This document shows positions 5,667 to 18,684 of a DNA stretch of 23,855 nt, piece by piece. The DNA comes from a virus: the IMG/VR virus record IMGVR_UViG_3300027365_000639, positions 1 to 23,855 of that record, one strand, 5' to 3'. The position numbers and the translations under genes are program-made. Each line of letters opens with the position of its first letter. Position 1 is the first letter of the stretch. The notes below the pieces were generated by a model. The model saw only the letters and a list, made by a program, of their open reading frames with translations, was not told the DNA's origin and made no database searches.

Positions 5667-6605
5667 GTGGCTGGATACTTCAAACTCTATCGAGATATAT
5701 TTGAAAGCAGCATATGGATGCAGCCAGTTGATTTAAGATTGTTCATATACCTAATTGGACAGGCCCGCTATAAAGAAGAACCTAACACCAAATATAAGAC
5801 TTATGGAATCAATATTAAACGCGGGCAGTTCCTCAGGTCCTATAGAAAAATAAGAGATGATCTTGAGTATTTTGAGAACAATGCTCTTAAGCATTATAGC
5901 CTTTCAGTAATCAAACGTTCGGTGGATAGATTGGTAGAACAAGAAAGAATAGAAATTGAACAAACTAAGCTTGGAACACTCTTTACAGTCGTTAATTACT
6001 GTCAGTATCAGGATTATCAAGAAAAATGCGACCAGCTTGGAACAGACTTGGAACAGGGTTGGAACGGCGCTGGAACGGACGCGGAACAATACAGTAAGAA
6101 GGGGAAAGAAGGGGAAAGAAAGGAGAAAGAAAAACGTTCGGACTATGAAAGCCCGAACCCTCCTTCTAAAACCGAAGAAGATAACCCTAAATATGGAGAA
6201 GATTCTAGACCTTATAAAGCAGCAATGCATTTAAGAAAAAGAATTTTAGAAAATAATGAAAAGGCCCAGGTCCCTCAACCAGATCCAAAGTCAATGGAAA
6301 AATGGGCTTACGAGTTAGATAAGTTAAATAGACTGGGTCCGGTAGGTAGAAATGATGCCGGTTATGATTGGAAAGAGATCGGAATGATTATGGAATGGTG
6401 CCAGGATCATCACTTCTGGAACACTAATATTTTATCAGCCGGTACTTTTAGAGAACAAATAATCAAATTAGAAAATCAAATGAAAAGCGATATTAATAAT
6501 GGAGAATGGAAAGCATCTAAAAATTCAAAACAAAAAGGGAATAAGAGAAAAGAGTTGTTTTTAAAATATAAAAATGAAGAAGAAAATAATTCTGGAGGTG
6601 AATAG
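5667..6605 (+). CDS. Replisome organizer / phage replication initiator
   Basis: A 312-residue protein with the build of Firmicute phage replication initiators. Residues 1-115 form a winged-helix DNA-binding domain (YFKLYRDIFESSIWMQP, then ALKHYSLSVIKRSVDRLVEQERI). Residues about 120-185 are a low-complexity Lys/Glu-rich linker. Residues 185-285 form a helical C-terminal domain (WCQDHHFWNTNILSAGTFREQI) of the type that recruits the helicase loader. It starts with GTG, 6 nt after GGTGGTGA. The gene segment encoding the linker contains an 11-bp iteron array and a purine tract, matching the lambda O arrangement in which the origin lies inside the initiator gene. The next gene is a G39P-like helicase loader, supporting the assignment. 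Confidence 0.85.
   Translation: MAGYFKLYRDIFESSIWMQPVDLRLFIYLIGQARYKEEPNTKYKTYGINIKRGQFLRSYRKIRDDLEYFENNALKHYSLSVIKRSVDRLVEQERIEIEQTKLGTLFTVVNYCQYQDYQEKCDQLGTDLEQGWNGAGTDAEQYSKKGKEGERKEKEKRSDYESPNPPSKTEEDNPKYGEDSRPYKAAMHLRKRILENNEKAQVPQPDPKSMEKWAYELDKLNRLGPVGRNDAGYDWKEIGMIMEWCQDHHFWNTNILSAGTFREQIIKLENQMKSDINNGEWKASKNSKQKGNKRKELFLKYKNEEENNSGGE
6037..6091 (+). repeat. Five 11-bp iterons inside the initiator gene (putative replication origin)
   Basis: GGAAC occurs at 6039, 6050, 6061, 6072 and 6083, exactly 11 bp apart, within units TTGGAACAGAC, TTGGAACAGGG, TTGGAACGGCG, CTGGAACGGAC and GCGGAACAATA. A sixth copy of the longer word AGCTTGGAACA lies at 5968-5978, exactly six periods (66 bp) upstream of the copy at 6034-6044. 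Because 11 is not a multiple of 3, the encoded residues are not periodic, so selection is on the DNA. One site per helical turn suits cooperative initiator binding. Confidence 0.75.
6096..6134 (+). repeat. 39-nt homopurine tract next to the iterons
   Basis: An unbroken purine run containing two copies of GGGGAAAGAA (6101-6120) and a third degenerate copy, starting 5 bp after the iterons. It could be an unwinding or triplex-forming element of the origin. It also encodes the Lys/Glu-rich linker of the initiator, which is an alternative explanation. Confidence 0.6.
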
Positions 6606-6606
6606 A

Positions 6607-7179
6607 TTGGAAAAATCAGAAGTTGTGCAGCTACTTAGTATTTTAGATAAATATTACAATCATAAATTTAACTTTCCGGTTGAAGACGATGATGAAAATG
6701 CTTTGATGATAGAAACTTGGCACGATTATTTAGGAGATTATGATTATCATCCAGCGTCAGTAGTATTGAAAAAATTAATGATTGAAAAAGAGTGGCCACC
6801 AACGCCAGGTGATTTAATTAGAGGGATTCAAAAAGCAATGACCAGAGATGAACCGGTAATGAAAATAAGCGGACCGAAAGCCTGGAATATGGTTTTAAAT
6901 GCAATCAGCAAGCATAGTTGGGTATACAACCCTAAGGAAGTGAAAGAAGCACTCCCGGAACCAGTATTAAAGGCTGCAGAAGTAACTGGGTTTAGTTTGA
7001 TTAATAATAATGCTGATGACAGTTTCATTATGAACAGATTTATTAAGACTTATGAACAGATTCAGGAGCATGAAAAAGAAAGAATGCTGTTACCTGGAGG
7101 AATTAGAAAAGATATCGAGAGAATTGAAAGACCAGAAGTAAAACAACTTGCAGAGAGGATAAGTGATAATAATGAATAA
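6607..7179 (+). CDS. G39P-like replicative helicase loader/inhibitor
   Basis: 190 residues. The N-terminal 70 (segments LLSILDKYYNHKFNF, ETWHDYLGDYDYHPASVVLKK and EWPPTPGDLI) match the helical domain of the SPP1 G39P family, which carries the replicative helicase to the origin-bound initiator. The C-terminal part is polar and probably flexible, also as in G39P. No phage DnaB gene is visible, so it should act on host helicase. I chose TTG 6607, 6 nt after GGAGGTG inside the end of the initiator gene. Its position immediately after the initiator is the SPP1-like order. Confidence 0.75.
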   Translation: MEKSEVVQLLSILDKYYNHKFNFPVEDDDENALMIETWHDYLGDYDYHPASVVLKKLMIEKEWPPTPGDLIRGIQKAMTRDEPVMKISGPKAWNMVLNAISKHSWVYNPKEVKEALPEPVLKAAEVTGFSLINNNADDSFIMNRFIKTYEQIQEHEKERMLLPGGIRKDIERIERPEVKQLAERISDNNE

Positions 7180-13695: not shown

Positions 13696-14064
13696 ATGGG
13701 AAATTTAAAACTAATAAGAAATAGTGGGAAGATTACTTTTAAAAAATCAGAGGATAATAAAAATAGTGCAATGATTGCTGGGTGGATATCAGCTAAAAGG
13801 ACCGGCATCTGGCTTAATCATATTAGAGGATTAGAAAATAGGTTTTTCGATATTGAAGAAAGATCAGAAATCAATGAAAATCACATTACTCTTTATGAGT
13901 CTGGCCAGATAATTGGATGGATAGAAAAAGATTATAAAAAAGAAATTGAGGACATGCTCTGGAAGCATCTAAAACATTATACTCATGAACCGGTAGAAGA
14001 AAAAGAAGTTAAAGAAGAGATTAAAGAGGAGCCGGCAGAGTTTGGCCAACTGGCATTATTTTAA
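13696..14064 (+). CDS. Protein with C-terminal sliding-clamp-binding motif
   Basis: 122 residues. Residues 1-95 form a compact domain of no recognised family (MIAGWISAKRTGIWLNHIRG, HITLYESGQIIGWIEKDYKK). Then comes a Glu/Lys-rich linker (about 96-113), and the last five residues are QLALF. This matches the bacterial beta-clamp-binding pentapeptide QL(S/D)LF. Its position, at the very end after a flexible linker, is the usual one for clamp binders. The protein could tether itself to, or block, host DnaN at the phage fork. Domain identity is unknown; motif match is by eye. ATG follows TAGGAGTGAACTAA. Confidence 0.75.
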   Translation: MGNLKLIRNSGKITFKKSEDNKNSAMIAGWISAKRTGIWLNHIRGLENRFFDIEERSEINENHITLYESGQIIGWIEKDYKKEIEDMLWKHLKHYTHEPVEEKEVKEEIKEEPAEFGQLALF

Positions 14065-16313: not shown

Positions 16314-16709
16314 ATGGATTACAGAGGTAGTTATGATTTTGAAAAAATGCATGATAAAGCGAAAGAGATTATAGTAGATTATTTTAAAGAAAATTATCCT
16401 TACCCTGAGGAAGAGATTGAATATTTCACAGAAAAACTTAGTTTATATTCTTTTCCTCAAACATGGTCAAGTACAGCCTGTGGGTTTGGTGGTATTGCTG
16501 GACAAGCAATTACTGGAGCACAAACAGTTGCATTCTTTTCAGACGGATTAGGAGTATTTGTAGTATTTATTGCCGGTAGGTTTGCTTATATGGTAGAGCC
16601 ACAGGGTTCAGAAGTTATTGAACTCATTATGCAGCATAGATTGCCGGGCAGATTTGATGCAAGTAGAAAATTTAAAGAGAGCAAAATACTTAAACTGGGA
16701 GGAAATTAA
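16314..16709 (+). CDS. Hypothetical phage protein
   Basis: 131 residues. Helical, acidic N-terminal half; the middle has a Gly/Ala-rich stretch (TACGFGGIAGQAITGAQTVAF) and a hydrophobic strand pair (GVFVVFIAGRFAYMVE), then a basic tail. This Gly/Gln stretch looks familiar from unnamed phage proteins but no function is known to me. ATG follows AGGAGGTAAAGAGA. Confidence 0.7.
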   Translation: MDYRGSYDFEKMHDKAKEIIVDYFKENYPYPEEEIEYFTEKLSLYSFPQTWSSTACGFGGIAGQAITGAQTVAFFSDGLGVFVVFIAGRFAYMVEPQGSEVIELIMQHRLPGRFDASRKFKESKILKLGGN

Positions 16710-16710
16710 A

Positions 16711-17163
16711 ATGGCACAATATACTCAAGCCCCTGAGGTAGAAAATATTGCTAATAAATTAATAGAAAAATATCATAATCACCTACAGGGTTTTAAGATA
16801 ATTTACTTATTTAGAGACAAAGCGATGAAATCAAAAGGAAAAGAGGTTTATGGTAAAGCTTCAAAAGTACAATCTAAGTACCAGGCTATCACTGGAGCAA
16901 CATTTGTCATTGAGATAGCTGAACCAGCATTTGCTTCAATGGACCACAAACATCAGGTAGCTTTAATAGATCATGAACTGATGCATTGCTTTATTGATGA
17001 AAATGATCAACCAACTATTCTTTCTCATGATTTCGAAGGATTCAACAAGGAGCTTAAGAGACACGGCTTCTGGGCTTCTGATCTGCAGATCATGAAGAAG
17101 CAGCTGCAGCAGATGGAACTGCCTTTTAATGAAAAACCAGAGCTTAAGGTGGTGAGTGGGTAG
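16711..17163 (+). CDS. Putative phage zinc metallopeptidase with clamp-binding-like tail
   Basis: 150 residues. His88-Glu89-Leu-Met-His92 in DHELMHCF is the HExxH zinc site of zincin peptidases, with candidate third ligands His106 or Glu113/114. The whole fits the 'putative phage metallopeptidase' family. Residues 125-139 form a helix ending QMELPF (134-139), which matches the hexapeptide form of the beta-clamp motif (QLxLPL/F, as in Hda). A protease tethered to the clamp would recall the eukaryotic Spartan protease, which carries a PCNA-binding motif and digests DNA-protein crosslinks. ATG 16711 follows GGGAGGAAATTAAA; the frame is open upstream but has no site there. Neighbours are an XRE regulator and two nuclease genes. 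Activity and clamp binding are inferred. Confidence 0.82.
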   Translation: MAQYTQAPEVENIANKLIEKYHNHLQGFKIIYLFRDKAMKSKGKEVYGKASKVQSKYQAITGATFVIEIAEPAFASMDHKHQVALIDHELMHCFIDENDQPTILSHDFEGFNKELKRHGFWASDLQIMKKQLQQMELPFNEKPELKVVSG

Positions 17164-17378
17164 TGCCAATCAATCACAAGAATCTGGCCCGGGCCAGAGA
17201 AAAGAGCGGAAATACTAAAACGTACTTAGCTAAAAAGTGCGGGGTAACAATAACTACCTATAGCAAGTGGGAAGACGGAGAAACAGTCCCGGGAGTCGAT
17301 AAAGCTAAGATACTTGCGGATATATATGAAACAACAGTTGATGTATTATTTTTCAGCAGAGTATTTAGACTAATTTGA
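17163..17378 (+). CDS. XRE-family helix-turn-helix regulator
   Basis: 71 residues. Residues 5-62 form a full XRE helix-turn-helix (LARAREKSGNTKTYLAKKCGV, then TYSKWEDGETVPGVDKAKIL). GTG 17163 overlaps the stop of the metallopeptidase gene by one base, so the two are coupled. It is a third Cro-like domain in this prophage; its target is not visible. It could regulate the middle genes that follow. Confidence 0.8.
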   Translation: MPINHKNLARAREKSGNTKTYLAKKCGVTITTYSKWEDGETVPGVDKAKILADIYETTVDVLFFSRVFRLI

Positions 17379-17388
17379 GGTGAGGTAA

Positions 17389-18228
17389 TTGGATTTTAGA
17401 TGCAGTTTAAGTAAATGGAGAACTAACAAAAGGTCGGCCAGGTTAACATTACTGGTCGGCCCCAAAGATGCACCAATGGATTTATATAACTTTGAAGACA
17501 AACCACTTGATATTATATTAAACAGCAAAGTTAAGATAAAAGGAGAAATCAAAAATATTGAGCAGCTGGTAAAAGGAAAAATAAAAATCGTGATCGTTAC
17601 TGCTGAAGATTATAAAAAAGAAATTATTAGCGGTGGCCCGGGCCTTAAAAATTCAGAAGAAATAAAAGCTACTTTTTTGATTGATGCTGATGAACAGGTT
17701 AAGCGAATGAATATGATCAGTGGCCGGCAAAGAAGAAAAGCTTTTGCAACTATAAAAGACATCGCGGAAGGCACTGGCCATGAAACTAATGAAATGTATA
17801 GAATCATAAAAGATAAATTCTCAGAAGTTACCGGTTATGGTGAGATCAGCCTTTCTGATTGCACTAGAGAAACCGCTGCTCTTTTTATTGAATATTGCAT
17901 AAGGCTTGGGTATGAAAGTGGAGTTGAATGGAAAGAGCACCCCAGAGAGAGAATGGACAATCTTTATAGATGGCTGCGGCTATGTCTTGATCAGAAAATT
18001 TGTGCAGTGTCTGGACTGCCGGGAAAAGAATATTTAATTGATAATTCTGGGGCTATAATTCACGCTCATCACACTGATGCAATAGGGATGGGGAGAAACA
18101 GACAGAAATTTGATGACAGTAAACTCAAAAAGATATCTTTATCAGCTAAATATCATAATGAAGCGCACAATATGGGTTGGGAATCATTTAAAGAAAAATA
18201 TCATGTTGAGGGCATTATTTATCCGTAA
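17389..18228 (+). CDS. Putative HNH nuclease (HNHc_6 family)
   Basis: 279 residues. The C-terminal domain has HAHHTDAIGMGRNRQK (225-240) and KYHNEAHNMGWESF (254-267), the core of the 'putative HNHc nuclease' phage family, with metal ligands His227/228, His256 and His260. Cys205 (KICAVSG) stands where CxxC is usual in other HNH enzymes. Residues 105-200 are helical and resemble recombination proteins of the NinB type. These genes lie in recombination/replication modules of Firmicute phages and probably cut branched or specific DNA. It starts with TTG, 6 nt after GAGGTG. Confidence 0.85.
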   Translation: MDFRCSLSKWRTNKRSARLTLLVGPKDAPMDLYNFEDKPLDIILNSKVKIKGEIKNIEQLVKGKIKIVIVTAEDYKKEIISGGPGLKNSEEIKATFLIDADEQVKRMNMISGRQRRKAFATIKDIAEGTGHETNEMYRIIKDKFSEVTGYGEISLSDCTRETAALFIEYCIRLGYESGVEWKEHPRERMDNLYRWLRLCLDQKICAVSGLPGKEYLIDNSGAIIHAHHTDAIGMGRNRQKFDDSKLKKISLSAKYHNEAHNMGWESFKEKYHVEGIIYP

Positions 18229-18267
18229 CGGATTAGGTGTTGGCCCGGTGATCGGAGGAGGTTGATT

Positions 18268-18684
18268 TTGTTGGCCTGGAGAAATGTAAGCGAAAAACAA
18301 GCAAAAGATTTGATTAAGAAAAAGAGAAAAGGTGCCGGTGTTAATGTTTTAGAAGAGGAAGAACAGAAAAAGCTAGCTCAATATCTTGATTATAAATATA
18401 CGGAAGGCGATTGGTGCCATGTTCCTAATGAAGGTGACCACAAAGTCCAGTATTATGCTAAACAGAAGACTTTAGGTGTTAAGTCAGGCGTGCCGGATGC
18501 ATTAATTTTCAAACCGGTTACCGGCTATAATGGAATTGCTATTGAGCTTAAAAGACTAAAAGGTGGCCGGGCAAGCGAAAGCCAAAAGAGATGGCTTAAG
18601 AGGTTTAAAGAGAATGGCTGGGCTGTTAAGTTAGCAGAAGGAGCAGATGCTGCTATAGAATTTATTGAAGAACTGGAGGGGTAA
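18268..18684 (+). CDS. VRR-NUC domain nuclease
   Basis: 138 residues. GVPDALIF (Asp77) and GIAIELKR (Glu93, Lys95) form the PD-(D/E)xK active site of VRR-NUC nucleases, a family of small phage Holliday-junction-type or flap nucleases. Ser/Gln-rich SQKRWLKRFKENGW follows, also typical. I chose TTG 18268, 6 nt after GGAGGAGG; TTG codons at 18262 and 18271 are also in frame. It pairs with the upstream HNH gene and the SSB gene as recombination and repair functions. Confidence 0.88.
   Translation: MLAWRNVSEKQAKDLIKKKRKGAGVNVLEEEEQKKLAQYLDYKYTEGDWCHVPNEGDHKVQYYAKQKTLGVKSGVPDALIFKPVTGYNGIAIELKRLKGGRASESQKRWLKRFKENGWAVKLAEGADAAIEFIEELEG

Follow-up and report, generated by a model that had tools for sequence, protein, structure and literature searches.

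Members of the phage protein family PF18894 combine a zinc-peptidase domain with a C-terminal tail in which a putative binding motif for the bacterial sliding clamp occurs far more often than expected by shuffling, and the member analyzed here is likely a clamp-tethered, SprT-like protease. The gene lies at 16711..17163 on the plus strand of a 23,855-nucleotide stretch of viral DNA, hereafter the window. Its 150-aa product matches PF18894 with a Pfam E value of 2.2e-32 and scores 112.3 bits against a cut-off of 23.7, which indicates full family membership. Pfam names the family PhageMetallopep, 'putative phage metallopeptidase', and its description assigns no function. The PHROG match of the protein, phrog_513, is labelled 'transposase', and many phage records call PF18894 members either 'transposase' or 'hypothetical protein'; phi105 (L008, NC_048631) is among the former. 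The 'transposase' label is likely a misannotation, because a zinc-protease site does not fit it.

The gene is preceded by a GGGAGG ribosome-binding site read from the sequence (16697..16702, plus strand), 8 bases before the ATG. All elements of the protein described below are encoded on the same strand. The preliminary description had placed a HELMH zinc site at residues 88-92 and a QMELPF motif at residues 134-139, and both are confirmed in the 150-residue translation. HELMH (16972..16986) is the zinc and catalytic site according to sequence and family columns, and His106 (17026..17028) is the probable third zinc ligand. The latter column is invariant in an alignment of 95 family proteins, which were selected by their intact H and E with no regard to the distal His. 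In the same alignment, the conserved domain ends at RHGFW (residues 117-121; 17059..17073), in which G119 and W121 are invariant and R117 is kept in at least 90% of proteins. QMELPF (17110..17127), recognized as a putative beta-clamp-binding motif through family comparison, follows beyond the last helix. Close to the C-terminus, an LKVV sequence (17143..17154) recurs in some Bacillota members according to a tail pattern count. Of 222 proteins, 31 have the pattern L[KRQ][VARLI][VI] in their final 12 residues, yet just 5 of 107 cluster representatives do. Endings resembling L[K/R]VV[K/S/G] are also found in L376, L379, L380, L382 and a Bacillus group, and form a second conserved C-terminal element.

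The nuclease neighbors named in the preliminary description are real, with a small gene intervening before the first of them. This gene encodes an HTH_3 regulator (17163..17378, plus strand), its start overlaps the metallopeptidase stop, and it is followed on the same strand by an HNHc_6 nuclease-family gene (17389..18228; PF16784, E 3.8e-21) and a VRR_NUC nuclease-family gene (18262..18684; PF08774, E 7.8e-10). A phage SSB (11974..12504, plus strand; PF00436, E 2.4e-30) and a G39P-like helicase loader (6574-7179; PF11417, E 2.1e-13) together suggest a phage that relies on host replication. A 47-kb contig encoding an identical protein, which may itself be a fragment, matched neither the beta clamp nor any of the polymerase families A, C and B. 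The window phage also encodes an integrase, an S24 repressor and a Bro-N protein, and looks temperate.

QMELPF fits the published clamp-motif consensus Q-phi-x-[L/M]-x-[F/L] when Met is counted as phi (PMC11139829, in the part available). Within the window alone, this fit means little: 57 mechanically chosen ORFs contain 2 consensus matches, compared with 2.0 +/- 1.4 in shuffles, so the single QMELPF occurrence is no more than chance. The motif gains significance through comparison across relatives only. Loss of the motif among close homologs had been set beforehand as the outcome that would speak against it; within the window's cluster (60% identity), Q-M-x-L-[P/S]-F is present in each of the seven unique proteins. 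Counting the window's own protein, this cluster reads QMELPF three times, QMKLPF twice, and QMQLSF and QMQLPF once each. The free x position thus varies and P changes once to S, while Q, M, L and F stay constant.

A second tail of this kind occurs in the same phage. The very last residues of the 122-aa protein at 13696..14064 (plus strand), which belongs to no family, are QLALF (14047-14061); a charged linker precedes this complete five-residue clamp motif. Six relatives in viral contigs share 82-100% identity with it, and QLALF is kept in those read; no match was found among named phages. Its predicted structure is poor (pLDDT 46.9).

For the family comparison, 322 loci were gathered from phages and from viral and genome contigs, and many of these loci repeat a single contig. 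Once ORFs open at a contig end were left out, they yielded 222 unique proteins. Seven with a core shorter than 90 residues were dropped, and the other 215, cut after the conserved RHGxW, gave 107 clusters when their cores were grouped at 60% identity. Motifs were counted in the first 40 residues of each tail; the domain end was placed less surely by alignment in divergent members such as cluster L198. Two patterns were used. The published one, Q-phi-x-[L/M]-(x)-[F/L], was taken from the accessible part of PMC11139829, and a broad pattern of our own was fixed after the first tails had been viewed.

Both patterns are strongly enriched. Of 107 clusters, 21 contain the published pattern; shuffling predicts 1.5 (never more than 7 in 5000 shuffles), and reversed tails give 1. 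For the broad pattern, the count is 54 of 107, where shuffling predicts 4.5 (maximum 13 in 2000) and reversed tails give 2. Over all 222 unique proteins, the respective counts are 32 and 98. Broad matches amount to 15.4 per 1000 residues in tails versus 0.2 in cores. An unguided scan of three-residue patterns placed QL.L at the top (29 vs 1.7), then Q..LP, with Q..LF also high. The enrichment is stable at clustering thresholds from 50 to 90%; at 40%, 7 clusters remain, too few to judge. Five- and six-residue forms of the clamp motif both occur in the family, as in QLGLF, QLSLF and QVDLF or in QLALPF and QMPLPL. Descriptively, acidic residues make up 25% of positions after the motif and 17% before it in 44 tails; the flanks of published clamp motifs are mostly negatively charged (PMC11139829, available part).

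A later sample of genomes gave the same picture. PF18894 matches were collected from 400 Chloroflexota and 398 Bacillota genomes, which produced 26 loci and, since the profile recovered no ORF at some of them, 20 ORFs. Six of these were excluded (five sharing 60% identity or more with the first set, one scoring low), leaving 14 proteins. The published pattern was found in 5 of them against 0.23 expected (maximum 3 in 3000 shuffles), and the broad pattern in 10 against 0.97 (shuffle maximum 5), with tails such as QLALF, QLNLF, QLSLF, QLAMF and QASLF. Some of the 14 proteins, which were counted without clustering, resemble one another: identity is 60-83% among L384, L385 and L394, 60% between L380 and L382, and 54-56% between L379 and the latter two. 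The five proteins with the published motif fall outside those related pairs, and none is related to another at 45% identity or more.

The shuffled and reversed tails argue against a composition artefact. A general property of phage C-termini was considered as well, and neighboring proteins argue against it. In the last 40 residues, the published pattern occurs in 3 of 261 co-oriented neighbors of at least 80 aa and in 4 of all 405 neighbors; the broad pattern gives 14 and 17 matches, respectively.

The distribution of the motif is patchy. Even the broad pattern is missing from 53 of 107 clusters, including the 44-member cluster L198 (0/44), whose closest relatives with a name are phages infecting Pseudomonas, Acinetobacter and other Gram-negative hosts. 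Six tails viewed in this cluster end in N-I-[S/A]-R-A-C-G-T-C-L-L-K-S-A and have no clamp motif, an ending that is possibly a different tail module of phages with Gram-negative hosts. The cluster of phi105 matches the broad pattern in 32 of 33 members and the published one in 3 of 33, and phi105's own QLTI is weak; such forms imply that the broad counts include weak ones. On the best tree, in which 30 of 104 inner branches are well supported, the motif label changes 25 times, at least 7 of them forced by supported branches. Where the motif is present, its distance from the domain is 11-16 residues in 46 of 54 cases.

Members from large phages seemed to have no motif, and a link to phage-encoded polymerases was sought for this reason. 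Among 50 contigs (46 of at least 40 kb and 4 of 37-39 kb, representing 50 of 107 clusters), the broad motif is present in 0 of 8 with their own polymerase versus 30 of 42 without (Fisher p 2.3e-4), and the published pattern in 0 of 8 versus 13 of 42 (p 0.09). No weight is placed on this link, because the tree offers only two well-supported independent pairs and the sign test has no power. Archaea use PCNA, and a comparison with the PIP box in archaeal members had too few of them, with 2 of 392 genomes over the cut-off. One of these two (L395) is a fragment with neither motif after the domain, and the other (L398) does not resemble a full member; Sulfolobus acidocaldarius, a control genome, gave a PF18894 match over the cut-off.

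In one 12-kb viral contig, the metallopeptidase (L151; tail QESIF) is followed immediately, and on the same strand, by a complete beta clamp gene. This gene (L151:3509-4609) encodes a 367-aa DNA polymerase III beta clamp with all three domains (PF00712, PF02767, PF02768). It was found in a Pfam scan that covered 10 of the 30 neighbors whose length fitted, and a phmmer search for a clamp gene among neighbors gave no match. As one case among the nearest neighbors examined, it illustrates the clamp link and does not prove it. A beta-clamp match occurred in 3 of 50 contigs scanned, one below the cut-off; the phage contigs of L144, L146 and L232 carry beta-clamp-like genes elsewhere (PF02767; L144 below cut-off). 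The metallopeptidase of L144 has QLAMF in its tail. In the L232 phage, which also has the beta-clamp gene, an upstream gene at 2092 carries QLSLPL at its very end, and a downstream neighbor in L020, at 3730, has QLELF in its last 40 residues. Each of the 25 commonest neighbor families listed accounts for at most three (Pfam) or four (PHROG) of 130 scanned neighbors. Gene context thus gives no substrate, because no neighbor family recurs widely.

The predicted structure points to a zincin. An AlphaFold2 model built from the 95 aligned family proteins has a mean pLDDT of 86.4, with the last helix at 123-134 and tail blocks of 66 and 51; QMELPF lies just past this helix, in the low-confidence block of mean pLDDT 66. 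In VIA-align comparisons, the best structural matches are the archaeal selecase and proabylysin (Z 7.5-9.2 over 78-100 residues). Human SPRTN follows with Z 8.0 for 6mdx (96 residues, 3.0 A) and 7.9 for 6mdw (102 residues, 3.5 A), values that are borderline since models without a clear match often reach Z 7 to 8. VIA-align compared only the top chains of Foldseek itself, so other folds may fit as well, and the Foldseek matches are weak (best E 0.012; SPRTN E 0.05-0.09). By hhalign, the family aligns with nine bacterial SprT rows (eight distinct) at a probability of 52.5% (E 1.4e-4, 62 columns) and with five other zincins at 2.6%, an unclean control in which four of the five weakly pass the PF10263 cut-off. 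We take these five proteins to be YgjP-like.

The metallopeptidase has no match to SprT-like PF10263 up to E 0.1, which by sequence puts it outside the SprT Pfam family, and searches of PDB sequences with it returned nothing meaningful. Hence, the likeness to Spartan suggested in the preliminary description holds in part: the predicted fold (6mdx Z 8.0, borderline) and the conserved distal His agree with it, and membership of PF10263 by sequence does not. As modelled, the fold may plausibly be SprT-like.

Of 222 unique family proteins, 210 retain every one of the H, E, H and distal H columns. In the later sample, a Bacillota branch (L384, L385, L394) has lost HExxH and reads DDVFR or DDVLR where DHELC is expected. 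L384 and L385 nevertheless keep QTNIF, and L394, the third of the branch, has QTKMD; elsewhere, L255 combines HQxxH with QLDL. The tails of L384, L385 and L255 imply that this region can have a role apart from proteolysis; in some members, a connection to the clamp may be important even with proteolysis absent. Further members whose site is altered carry no motif, namely five that read HLAP or HLTP, L042 (HLHY) and L370 (HVHH). In a separate branch (L009, L069, L082, L088, L089), HLLC stands where HELxH is expected, so that the zinc site is lost, and there is no clamp motif; L009 and L082 are located in very large phage contigs.

These observations can be assembled into a working model. A compact zinc metalloprotease, built around HExxH and a distal His, would dock on host DnaN, the clamp, through QMELPF in its flexible C-terminal tail. 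Kept at the fork in this manner, it would cut proteins that obstruct replication of the phage genome, possibly DNA-bound or crosslinked proteins or host proteins present at the fork. Its working mode would resemble that of Spartan with PCNA. The predicted zincin fold, the intact catalytic residues and the repeated motif enrichment count as the established part of this explanation. Judged from the motif, the tail very probably binds DnaN, and the intact ligands make it just as probable that the enzyme is an active protease. The substrate is less certain: by analogy with SPRTN, fork-blocking proteins are about as probable as a particular host or defense protein. The reading as a whole, a clamp-docked fork protease that clears proteins blocking phage replication, is accordingly given an even chance. 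No DNA-binding part is recognizable in the metallopeptidase, which counts against this reading, as SPRTN needs its own (PMC5128726, in the part available).

The alternative that shares most with this model keeps the clamp-tethered protease and changes its target to one host replication protein or a fork-acting defense protein, in the service of host takeover or counter-defense. The same domain and tail evidence applies, the phage looks temperate, and the gene sits among HTH, nuclease and replication-related genes. Members reside on contigs assigned to many phyla, though, which speaks against one narrow host target, and no defense-related neighbor recurs among the 25 commonest families listed. 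We regard a dedicated host target as possible but unlikely, roughly one case in four. More doubtful is the idea that the tail fills the DnaN pocket and thereby alters replication or polymerase traffic, with proteolysis secondary or lost. It would account for the proteins that keep QTNIF or QLDL on a changed zinc site, and this same DnaN pocket is the reported site of action of the bacterial toxins SocB and RipA (PMC12795458, in the text available); yet the four ligand columns are intact in nearly all family proteins, and the other altered-site members have no motif.

The two remaining alternatives do without the clamp. The tail motif could belong to the protein's own structure, as a cap or a strand, or bind another partner, and merely resemble a clamp motif. 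The fairly even spacing after the domain would suit such a role, as would the many members that read QLxL or QMxI without a final F or L. The occurrence of both five- and six-residue clamp forms, the position of the window's motif in a low-confidence tail, and a motif label that comes and goes on the tree make this explanation improbable, slightly more so than occupation of the pocket. A chance match in this one protein, to which the two matches seen and two expected in the window might lend credit, is contradicted by the family data, since the motif is kept throughout the window's cluster and enriched in both the family and the hold-out set; its probability is very small. The clamp-docked fork protease stays the preferred reading.

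Among the titles and abstracts of the matches listed in open-licence literature, nothing connects the sliding clamp with PF18894 or with a phage protease, and the name PhageMetallopep was not found there. In the portion available, the publication there that names PF18894 describes a phage accessory gene of unknown role and makes no mention of a clamp motif. To our knowledge, the design of a clamp-tethered protease is known from eukaryotes only; bacterial viruses would possess one as well if the present reading is true. On this reading, an annotated but unexplained phage family becomes a testable replisome enzyme. The analogy between phage proteins and the SPRTN fold is not new, because a mycobacteriophage protein has been likened to human SPRTN (PMC12363180, 2025, in the part available). 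What may be new is the clamp motif together with its statistics and the pseudoproteases that carry it. The family also supplies many natural candidate peptides for the clamp pocket, an antibiotic target (PMC11139829, available part). In the broadest terms, we tentatively propose, at somewhat less than even probability, that a widespread phage family is a bacterial counterpart of Spartan, a SprT-like protease moored to the clamp that removes protein obstacles to phage replication. The family would have met the same design independently, gained and lost the motif repeatedly, and become protease-dead in one side branch in which the motif was kept.

Among known systems, SPRTN/Spartan shares HExxH and a zincin fold match with the phage protein and differs from it in size (489 aa vs 150 aa) and composition. 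SPRTN comprises a Zn-binding subdomain, a basic DNA-binding region, SHP and UBZ (PMC9240642, in the text available); the phage protein has none of these, just a short tail after about residue 121, and carries a bacterial clamp motif where SPRTN has a PIP box. The tail of SPRTN binds PCNA (available parts of PMC9240642 and PMC5128726). SPRTN lacking its DNA-binding region is inactive, and its recruitment upon formaldehyde is mostly independent of PCNA binding (PMC5128726, same part), so that even in this model system, crosslink repair is not closely bound to the clamp.

Archaeal minigluzincins such as selecase and proabylysin share a zincin core of about 110 residues with the phage enzyme. As gluzincins, they use Glu as third ligand; the invariant distal residue of the phage family is His106, a probable ligand. 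We know of no clamp-motif tail in minigluzincins. The mycobacteriophage SprT-like protein MPC00488 has already been reported to be structurally like SPRTN 6MDX, and the part of PMC12363180 available does not mention a clamp motif. In ArdC, a mobile-element protein, the metalloprotease domain has been superposed on the SPRTN SprT domain, and an ssDNA-binding domain is added; the word 'clamp' is absent from the portion of PMC7213743 available. The N-terminal ssDNA-binding domain of ArdC is absent from the phage enzyme, whose PF18894 match starts at residue 3 of 150.

The tail itself has its nearest counterparts among bacterial clamp-binding proteins, which use the same short motif. No clamp partner in the table of PMC11139829, the part available, is a protease. 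Within PF18894, the tail of L312 is the exact Pol II form QLGLF, and L113 and L117, two family copies in one chromosome of Alicyclobacillus sp. ALC3, both carry QADLF, which differs by a single residue from QADMF, the internal clamp motif in Pol III alpha.
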